Shown here: positions 30,860 through 61,570 of the stretch, piece by piece | Layout: each line of letters opens with the position of its first letter | Numbering within the stretch: the stretch's first letter is position 1 | Assembly (NCBI GenBank): GCA_015519975.1 | Contig: WIAL01000006.1 | Location: forward strand, 1-64,000 | Source of the DNA: Hydrogenothermaceae bacterium | GTDB lineage: Bacteria > Aquificota > Aquificia > Aquificales > Hydrogenothermaceae | Direction of reading: 5' to 3' | Length of the DNA: 64,000 nucleotides | Translations under genes and position numbers: made by a program | The notes under the pieces: generated by a model | The model's database searches: none | Told to the model about the DNA's origin: nothing | The model's input: the letters and a program-made list of their open reading frames with translations, nothing else

Positions 30860-31762
30860 TTGGAAGATATAACAACGAAAAAGAAAATCCTTTTTACAGC
30901 TATTGTCCTTAATATGATAATTGTTATCTCCCAAATCATTTTTGGAATACTAAGCCACTCTATTGCTCTTATAACAGATGCTGTTCATAACTTTCAGGAT
31001 GTTCTTTCTTTAATTATTGCTTATATTGCTGCTATTTTCTTTGCAAAAAAGCCTACGGAAAGAATGACCTTTGGTTATTTAAGGGCTGAGGCTATGGCAG
31101 GCTTTATAAATTCAGCATTTTTAGTTGGTGCAATTGTTTTACTTATTGTGATGGGAATAGAAAGACTGTTGTATCCTCAACCTGTAGAAAGTTTAACTGT
31201 AATTATTGTTGGAGCTATTGCTTTTGTAGTTAATTCTATATCTGCCTTTTTACTTGGATTTCATCACAATCACGAAGATGAACACGGTCATGCTCATGAT
31301 GAGGATTTAAATATAAAGGCTGCTTACCTGCATCTTTTAAGTGATGCTTTGATTTCCCTTGGTGTAGTAATTGGCGGAATTTTTATGTACTTTTTCTCAA
31401 TATATTGGCTTGATCCTGCTCTATCTATAATCTTTTCTTTATATATATTAAAGGAAACAATACCTGTATTAAAGAAAACATTTAATATTTTAATGGAAGC
31501 AGCTCCTTCTGAAATAAATACAGCTACTATAAAAAAATTAATTTTAAATTTTCCTGAAGTTATTGACGTACATGATATTCATGTTTGGGCATTATCTTCA
31601 AAAGATTTATATTTAACAGGACATATTGTAGTTGATGAAAAATACCTTGAAAAAGCAGACAGTATTATTAAAAATATAGAAAAAAAGCTTAGAGAAAAGG
31701 GTATAAACCATATTACCCTTCAACCTGAAACCAAAAATTTCAAATGTGAAAATGTTTATTGA
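30860..31762 (+). CDS. Cation diffusion facilitator metal exporter
   Basis: 300 residues, six membrane segments, and cytoplasmic His-rich loop HHNHEDEHGHAHDED (about residues 135-149) between the fourth and fifth. The first HSIALITDAVHNFQD and the later HLLSDALISLGV carry the paired metal-site acids and His typical of the Zn/Cd/Co exporters (CzcD-like). The C-terminal cytoplasmic domain ends in HITLQPE. A TTG start behind GGAG is used, 4 bases after the previous gene. The 3' end overlaps the convergent ferritin-like gene by 7 bases. Confidence 0.93.
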   Translation: MEDITTKKKILFTAIVLNMIIVISQIIFGILSHSIALITDAVHNFQDVLSLIIAYIAAIFFAKKPTERMTFGYLRAEAMAGFINSAFLVGAIVLLIVMGIERLLYPQPVESLTVIIVGAIAFVVNSISAFLLGFHHNHEDEHGHAHDEDLNIKAAYLHLLSDALISLGVVIGGIFMYFFSIYWLDPALSIIFSLYILKETIPVLKKTFNILMEAAPSEINTATIKKLILNFPEVIDVHDIHVWALSSKDLYLTGHIVVDEKYLEKADSIIKNIEKKLREKGINHITLQPETKNFKCENVY

Positions 31763-32685
31763 TTTTTCTTAAATAAACTTCCAACTGTTAAAGCTGATAT
31801 AACTTTTGCTATATCCTGATCTGTAGTCTCAGGTCTCTTTAAAAACTCTTCTAAATCTGTGTAATGTATTTCCCTTTTTGCTATTCTTTCAAGAATCCAT
31901 TTTAAATCCCTGTCTTCCACATTTTTTGCAATTTCTTCAACTTCTTTTGGAAATTCCTGCTGATCTTTAATCTGATAATTAATTATCTCTCTTTCATCTT
32001 CTACTTTCTTAATTTGAGGTAAATCCATATTTGGTTTTGCTCCAGCTTCAGCAACTTCTTCAGCAACCCAGCCAAAATGCTTCATCTTATCAATAGCCCG
32101 TTGTTCAAGCTCATCACTTAAGTGTGGATTTTTATGCCTTGTTACAAATGACTGGTATAAACTTTCAAGGATTTTTTCGTACTGCTTTTGAAGATAAATG
32201 TTTAAAAGATTAACTATTTTTAGTTTATTTTCATCAATTACAGATTTTTCTCCATTTTCTGCTATTTTTTCTTTTACTTTTTCCTGCAGGTCGTTAAAAA
32301 TCTTAAAATGAGCAGTTTCATCATTGATAGCCCTTTCCAGAATCCTTTGAACTTTTTTATCAGATATCTCTTTCAACTGCCGTGAGTATTCATCTATTGC
32401 CATTTTTTCTGCATCTATATCAAACTGAAGCAGTTCTACTGCATTAGGTGCCTCTAAAAAAACGGAAGCTCTTTTATCTATTGCAGGTATTCCTCCAAGA
32501 TCAACAACTGCATGGGCAAACATTCTAAGATGTTTCATTTCTTCTCTTGCTATCTCTTCAAGTTCATTTTCTATAGACTCTTCTCCAATAGTATAAGCGT
32601 GGAAAAGATACTGAATGATAGCTGAGTGCTCAAGAGATATATTGTAATTTAAATAATCAATGGCTTTTTTTATTTCTATATCCAT
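31756..32685 (-). CDS. Tandem ferritin-like protein with encapsulin cargo-loading tail
   Basis: 309 residues from the ATG at 32685, chosen because AGGGAGG lies just upstream; an in-frame ATG 24 bases earlier has no such site. The first ferritin/rubrerythrin-like domain (1-140) has diiron ligands: Glu19, Glu49/His52, Glu93 or Glu99, and Glu123/His126. The second helical domain (155-283) repeats the pattern in degenerate form (DKMKH, REIHY lack the exact ExxH). A linker leads to the C-terminal LTVGSLFKK (299-307), which matches the encapsulin cargo-loading consensus. It follows the shell gene directly and is expected to store or oxidise iron inside the compartment. Confidence 0.87.
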   Translation of the reverse strand: MDIEIKKAIDYLNYNISLEHSAIIQYLFHAYTIGEESIENELEEIAREEMKHLRMFAHAVVDLGGIPAIDKRASVFLEAPNAVELLQFDIDAEKMAIDEYSRQLKEISDKKVQRILERAINDETAHFKIFNDLQEKVKEKIAENGEKSVIDENKLKIVNLLNIYLQKQYEKILESLYQSFVTRHKNPHLSDELEQRAIDKMKHFGWVAEEVAEAGAKPNMDLPQIKKVEDEREIINYQIKDQQEFPKEVEEIAKNVEDRDLKWILERIAKREIHYTDLEEFLKRPETTDQDIAKVISALTVGSLFKKNQ

Positions 32686-32698
32686 CTTGGATCCTCCC

Positions 32699-33535
32699 TT
32701 ACTCTGCAACTACAACTGCCGATGGATTTTTAATTCTAAAGGCAATAAGTTCAAAAACTCTGAAGTAGTGATCCATATTTTCATAAGCAAGATAAGCAGT
32801 GATTATGTCCTGAACAATAAATAAATCCATATTTTCAATTCCTGTAGAAAGTGCCACAACTTTACCTTCTGGAACAGCATAACTTGAGAATACTCCCACA
32901 TCGAAAAGTTCTTTAATATGGTTAATTTCAAGTACACCGCTATTTCCGTATATTCTATAAGCTTTTGCCTGATCTTTAGGGTTTAAAACAAAAACGAGAT
33001 TTGAACCAAACCCTTGAGAGTTTAAAGTTTCTACACATTTAACAGCTGTTTTAAATATCCCGCCTTCCTCATCAAAATTTTCTTTTTCAATTTCATTTCT
33101 ACCTTCCACATTTAAAAGACCTGGATATCCAAGCTGAGGATCACCATTAAAAATAAACATATCCTCTGCCAATGCCACCTGACGGGCCGCTGCTGCTGCA
33201 ACAGCTGTATCTAAAGGAACTCCAAGTTTCTTGCTGGTTTCTATATCTCTCCAGTGGATTTTAAAATCCTTATAAATTTGTGGTACAGGAAGAAATTTCC
33301 TGTTCTCAACTTTTACAATATCACACTCTTTATCTCCAAAAAGACCACATGCTCCACTGTCAGCTGAAGATATAACATCATAAGCAACAGATTGAATAGC
33401 TGGATCTGATGCAGGAGTTATTTCAATAAATCTTCTTCCAACAAGGTTTGCTTTTGCAGTATTTATCACTGTATTATCTATTAAATTCCACTGATCCTGA
33501 GTTAATGGTGCTTCTTCTCTATGTAGAAATTCCAT
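32699..33535 (-). CDS. Encapsulin nanocompartment shell protein (family 1)
   Basis: 278 residues of HK97-like fold. The opening MEFLHREEAPLTQDQWNLID is the family 1 encapsulin N-terminal signature, which forms the cargo-binding pocket. The C-terminus IAFRIKNPSAVVVAE also fits. Compared with the Thermotoga shell there is an inserted E-loop-side segment with two Cys (SGACGLFGDKECD). Probable operon with the ferritin-like cargo, 13 bases apart. The ATG follows AAGGAGGGA. A Fur/PerR-like palindrome lies about 30 bases upstream. Confidence 0.92.
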   Translation of the reverse strand: MEFLHREEAPLTQDQWNLIDNTVINTAKANLVGRRFIEITPASDPAIQSVAYDVISSADSGACGLFGDKECDIVKVENRKFLPVPQIYKDFKIHWRDIETSKKLGVPLDTAVAAAAARQVALAEDMFIFNGDPQLGYPGLLNVEGRNEIEKENFDEEGGIFKTAVKCVETLNSQGFGSNLVFVLNPKDQAKAYRIYGNSGVLEINHIKELFDVGVFSSYAVPEGKVVALSTGIENMDLFIVQDIITAYLAYENMDHYFRVFELIAFRIKNPSAVVVAE

Positions 33536-33564
33536 CTTGAATCCCTCCTTAAATTAATAATGAT

Positions 33565-33578
33565 TATTATTAATAATA
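33565..33578. promoter_or_regulatory. Fur/PerR-like palindrome upstream of the encapsulin operon
   Basis: TATTATTAATAATA, a perfect 14-bp palindrome inside a longer run resembling Fur-family boxes (TAATGATTATTATTAATAAT). The same 14 bases form the core of the 24-bp palindrome upstream of korAB. Iron- or peroxide-responsive control of the encapsulin operon is inferred. Confidence 0.5.
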
Positions 33579-33671
33579 GTTATTGCTAAATTAATTGTCA
33601 ATGTTTATTTTTTTATCTTATATGTTTTTTCAATTTTTTCCTTTAGTTAATTTTAAATCTAAGGAGATTAA

Positions 33672-61359: not shown

Positions 61360-61412
61360 GCCACCTTTCTAAATAGGTAGAGTATACCTTTCTACCTGAT
61401 TAGAAAGATGGC
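61360..61412 (-). terminator. Riboswitch-controlled attenuator hairpin upstream of thiC
   Basis: Minus strand GCCATCTTTCTAA pairs with TTAGAAAGGTGGC (13 bp, one G-U), with an inner AGGTAG / CTACCT stem. It is followed by TTTTTTATTTTAT. Placed between aptamer and start codon, it is the expression platform. Confidence 0.88.
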
Positions 61413-61421
61413 CGTCCAGCA

Positions 61422-61509
61422 GCCCGCTTTCCCTACGGCGGTATTAACCGCATCAGGTTCCAAGGGTATACTCTCAAGCCCCTTTTAAAAGGGACTACCC
61501 CCAGCGGGA
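61422..61509 (-). ncRNA. TPP riboswitch (THI element) aptamer
   Basis: Read on the minus strand: closing stem CCCGC / GCGGG, the CTTGAGAGTATACCC box (usual CTGAGA variant), GAACCTGATGCGGTTAATACC, and CCGTAGGGAAAGC. All conserved elements of the thi-box aptamer occur in order. Thiamine pyrophosphate binding is expected to favour the terminator downstream and lower thiC expression. Confidence 0.96.
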
Positions 61510-61570
61510 AAACTTATTCTGTTTGTATTTAATTTATACTTATTATTCTACACTACAAGAATGATTTTTA

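Follow-up and report, generated by a model that had tools for sequence, protein, structure and literature searches.

Encapsulin ferroxidase cargos such as EncFtn and EncB/EncC consist of a two-helix subunit, and their site forms only on dimerising. A two-bundle layout is also known and makes up the 'Bfr' cargo class of encapsulins (Andreas & Giessen 2021, PMC8346489), named Bfr-like FLP, formerly 'Flp + Flp', in a 2024 review (PMC11202242). As described there, the first bundle of Bfr-like FLPs houses a single ferroxidase centre, the second varies and the C-terminus is disordered; the chain is likened to a Bfr homodimer and might form a 12-mer cage within the shell. PDB entry 9viw, deposited as 'Bacterioferritin', is a full-length Aquificales homologue of the cargo described below (E=1.3e-42). 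Over 295 residues, C-terminal FTIGGL tag included, it is identical to a protein of genome G029 (locus L020); no paper on this entry was found in a literature search. The locus studied here lies in a stretch of 64,000 nucleotides (the window) of contig WIAL01000006.1 from a Hydrogenothermaceae bacterium. A sequence-only reading had placed there an encapsulin gene and a gene for a two-domain ferritin-like protein, and had seen in them a possible new cargo layout. Both genes were confirmed at that place, on the minus strand. Novelty of the layout is ruled out, as it is already published (PMC8346489, PMC11202242), widespread in Aquificota and represented by the solved homologue 9viw. We propose that the gene pair is very probably an encapsulin iron-storage system, in which the tagged cargo would load the shell and oxidise Fe(II) at its first bundle.

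The shell gene (32699-33535, minus strand) encodes a 278-aa family 1 encapsulin of the M. xanthus EncA / Q. thermotolerans type and is followed by the gene of a 309-aa tandem bacterioferritin-like cargo (31756-32685, minus strand). The likely start of the latter, as read from the sequence, is the ATG at 32685. A TTG at 32709 was set aside, given the Shine-Dalgarno sequence GGGAGG (32693-32698, minus strand) located directly 3' of the shell TAA and the common use of this ATG by relatives. With this start the two genes do not overlap, and the succession of shell stop codon, GGGAGG and cargo ATG makes the pair read as a bicistronic operon. A promoter-like site of the operon, TTGACA-17-TATTAT (33573-33601, minus strand, 11/12 match), is overlapped by an AT-rich palindrome (33553-33584) resembling the Fur consensus at 15 of 19 positions. 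We do not claim a Fur box, as none was seen upstream of the operon in relatives and the shuffle p of 0.006 in the window is that of one of 17 tests. Flanking genes in the window are GcvT-like, radical SAM aminomutase-like, CDF transporter and GGDEF/EAL genes, with no phage genes among them. The cation diffusion facilitator gene (30860-31762, plus strand) faces the cargo gene tail to tail, with an overlap of 7 bases; it was not seen at 2 other operon loci inspected (L117, L118). Farther along the window, a TPP riboswitch was detected at 61412-61512 on the minus strand (RF00059, 68 bits).

The shell protein matches Pfam PF04454 (E=3.3e-58) and the curated family 1 encapsulin model NCBIfam NF041155 (234.4 bits for a cut-off of 100), and these matches, together with its HK97 fold and phage-free flanks, assign it to family 1. 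The fold closest to its AF2 model (pLDDT 89) is that of M. xanthus EncA (8vjo, TM 0.92, 40% identity), followed by the shells of B. methanolicus, D. quercicolus and Q. thermotolerans, T. maritima being farther. This ranking suggests a capsid larger than T=1, either T=3 or T=4. The E-loop (aa 55-77, 33305-33373, minus strand) contains Cys63 (33347-33349) and Cys71 (33323-33325), initially reported as an extra two-Cys insertion. The cysteine pair is real and invariant in 38/38 aligned Aquificales shells, taken from Hydrogenothermaceae and Aquificaceae, two families whose shells are otherwise about 40% identical. The insertion was ruled out: Hydrogenothermaceae shells align with EncA without any gap at this pair, which thus amounts to two substitutions; Aquificaceae shells have three additional residues between the two cysteines. 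The tip of the E-loop has low confidence in the AF2 model. It is a fair guess that Cys63 and Cys71 form a disulfide within or between E-loops, and such a putative staple is a tangible candidate for a feature that keeps the capsid of a thermophile stable at high temperature.

The cargo matches the ferritin family PF00210 over two stretches (E=1.2e-15) and its AlphaFold model (pLDDT 80.5) displays two four-helix bundles. Profile alignment of the two with hhalign shows that they are homologous (E=1.3e-16, 21% identity). The fused two-domain ferritin-like cargo announced for this lineage of thermophiles is thus borne out, and so is the degeneracy of its second domain. Bundle 1 (aa 3-143, 32257-32679, minus strand) has a complete di-iron site formed by E19, E49, H52, E93, E123 and H126, and these six bacterioferritin-type ferroxidase ligands are invariant in all 38 aligned homologues (38/38). 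In bundle 2 (aa 152-283, 31837-32232, minus strand), Glu ligands are replaced by Q168, K200 and R271, with M201, H203, E272 and H274 kept; homologues have Gln at position 168 (Glu in Aquificaceae), K, Q or S at 200 and R or Q at 271. These replacements identify bundle 2 as a degenerate ferritin domain. Its erosion has gone further in genus g21, where the cargo is 263-275 aa long (L119, L120), the helix-B His is gone and FTIGDL, the targeting motif, nevertheless persists at the C-terminus; we counted this retention of the tag in favour of the encapsulin-cargo reading. The decay of the catalytically degenerate half of the cargo can be followed in this way across Aquificota.

In the canonical single-domain bacterioferritin, a 24-mer, haem is held at the subunit interface between two Met52 residues. 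A methionine at the place equivalent to bacterioferritin Met52 is invariant in both bundles (M50 and M201), and this residue also occurs in haem-free ferritin-like proteins. That the chain is a self-contained bacterioferritin dimer with one haem between M50 and M201 that passes electrons for iron release, and that Cys63/Cys71 cross-link the E-loops of the surrounding shell, appears to us quite doubtful; if true, Aquificales would have an iron compartment of their own, wired by haem and stapled by disulfides. The single-bundle structural matches of the cargo model are bacterioferritins; 9viw was not among the matches listed in this search of the fold library. The likeness to bacterioferritins would fit a cage in a cage, with twelve tandem chains assembling into a bacterioferritin-like 24-bundle cage inside the encapsulin and iron being stored in the inner cage, and a modelled 12-mer cage of such a chain does fit T=1 or T=3 shells (PMC11202242). 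Other encapsulated FLPs, however, form no cages (PMC11202242), and nothing firm can be drawn from the 4 chains of the 9viw entry; this nested arrangement is conceivable, and we do not expect it.

The cargo chain ends in LTVGSLFKKNQ. The targeting peptide core LTVGSL (aa 299-304, 31774-31791, minus strand) lies within a disordered tail (aa 295-309), which upholds the cargo-loading consensus first noticed at this C-terminus. Its pattern has a single match in the window, against 0.06 expected. Taken alone the motif is weak, as a looser version gave 28 matches genome-wide and 28 in the reversed control. The position of LTVGSL at the C-terminus of a ferritin, the adjoining shell gene and the invariance of G302 and L304 in 35 aligned homologues nevertheless make it more than a chance occurrence. 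Further tagged cargos in the genome were rejected on the same counts: among motifs near an in-frame stop, that of the window cargo alone belongs to a convincing gene, an 83-aa protein ending in GITITVGKLLK (L067) being a weaker candidate. Inspection of about 5-6 kb around four unlinked shells yielded no other tagged genes.

Shell and tandem cargo were then compared across 136 Aquificota genomes, 71 of which have both, 4 the cargo only, 3 the shell only (these three are 65-87% complete) and 58 neither (Fisher p about 1e-29, a descriptive value since the genomes are related). In G016, in which no shell was found, a frameshift in an A-rich stretch at the end of the cargo gene (L123) removes the tag, and could be either true decay or a sequencing or assembly error; in G024, also with no shell found, the cargo is reduced to a remnant. 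Both cases of decayed cargo in shell-less genomes were counted for the encapsulin-cargo reading. Cargos with an intact tag and no detected shell in G076 and G109, whose assemblies are incomplete, were counted against it, as was the fact that shell and cargo genes are mostly unlinked in Aquificales: they were seen side by side in g1, g2 and g18 alone among the genera, and apart elsewhere. This lack of linkage in most Aquificales would be expected if the tail were a relic, the tandem ferritin being free in the cytosol and its neighbourhood to the shell gene incidental. However, both families have kept the tag despite the divergence of bundle 2, and the cargo is almost always accompanied by the shell; we regard a relic tail as highly improbable and retain the reading of an encapsulated cargo.

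The shell of g18, a genus of Aquificaceae according to the label of the genome set, is nested in the clade of the window (100/100 support), far from the other shells of its family, and the grouping of g18 with the window also appears in the cargo tree (support 83/98). The linked operon of the Aquificaceae genus, carried by genomes G068, G069 and G071 (loci L080-L082 and L096-L098), is close to the version in the window. This placement of a shell within the clade of another family suggests, on phylogenetic grounds, that the linked shell-cargo pair was transferred horizontally between families. Spread by plasmids was rejected, with 0 cargo matches and one distant shell in plasmids. The scan of genome contigs took in near relatives only.

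A strong single-domain ferritin, defined as a PF00210 match of about 65 bits or more in a short ORF (a threshold of our choosing), is found in 48 of the 136 genomes, only 3 of which also have a shell; 71 have the shell alone and 45 the ferritin alone, counted among the matches listed, down to about 37 bits, in genomes that are not phylogenetically independent. G002, which belongs to the genus of the window and is 99% complete, has a single-domain ferritin and neither shell nor tandem cargo. This near-exclusion, together with G002, supports the view that the encapsulin and its tandem cargo may serve as the main iron store. In Aquificota, an ordinary ferritin seems to take the place of the encapsulated tandem protein and vice versa, even between members of a single genus. 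Such a complementary distribution points to iron storage and argues against a cargo acting mainly as a rubrerythrin-like di-iron peroxidase or oxygen scavenger in oxidative stress, with storage as a secondary role. This alternative draws on the additional Pfam matches of bundle 1 to PF02915 rubrerythrin and COQ7 and on the oxidative-stress roles proposed for encapsulated FLPs (PMC11202242). No rubredoxin domain was matched in the cargo by Pfam, and a primarily protective function seems to us unlikely. The genome also encodes a small Bfd-like [2Fe-2S] domain protein in an 81-aa frame lacking the targeting motif (L133, G000 C24:20203-20328), a possible partner for iron release.

From the gene pair, the fold, the intact and lost ligands, the conserved tag and the co-occurrence of shell and cargo, we infer how the iron-storage system may work. 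The shell protein would form an icosahedral compartment of HK97 fold, whose size would probably be at least T=3, as in the most closely related shells. The two four-helix bundles of one cargo chain would together resemble a bacterioferritin subunit dimer, and the flexible C-terminal LTVGSL tag would bind the inner shell wall, thereby loading the cargo. Fe(II) would enter through the shell pores and be oxidised at the sole complete di-iron site, that of bundle 1, and ferric mineral would accumulate inside the shell. Bundle 2, a former ferritin domain that presumably lost catalysis, would act as a built-in dimer partner and as a spacer to the tag. The pair in the window offers a favourable natural system in which to ask what purpose a bacterioferritin has when enclosed by another shell. 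The co-occurrence of shell and tandem cargo across the phylum, the mapping of the operon transfer, the complementary distribution and the stepwise decay of bundle 2 are added here and may interest specialists.

Among known systems, the shells of M. xanthus EncA (T=3) and Q. thermotolerans (T=4) have the same fold as that of the window (TM about 0.9, 38-40% identity), whereas both cysteines of the Aquificales E-loop pair are absent from EncA and from D. quercicolus. EncFtn of Rhodospirillum rubrum and Haliangium and EncB/EncC of M. xanthus are likewise ferroxidase cargos of family 1 shells with a C-terminal targeting peptide. Their site needs a dimer, in contrast to the window cargo, each chain of which contains a whole site. 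The window cargo scores far below the cut-offs of the EncB/EncFtn models (28.6 of 90 bits for NF058679 and 21 of 125 bits for TIGR04535). It also falls short of the canonical bacterioferritin model TIGR00754 (19.4 bits against 125.55), its chain being twice as long. 9viw is about 34-36% identical to it and retains more Glu residues in bundle 2. The closest match is the encapsulated Bfr-like FLP class (PMC8346489, PMC11202242), characterised by two consecutive four-helix bundles, a linker, a centre in the first bundle and a long, disordered, tagged tail, and reported in Aquificae among other phyla. With its two homologous bundles, a complete centre in bundle 1 only and a disordered tagged tail, the window cargo is a member of this class, from which it differs in nothing essential.
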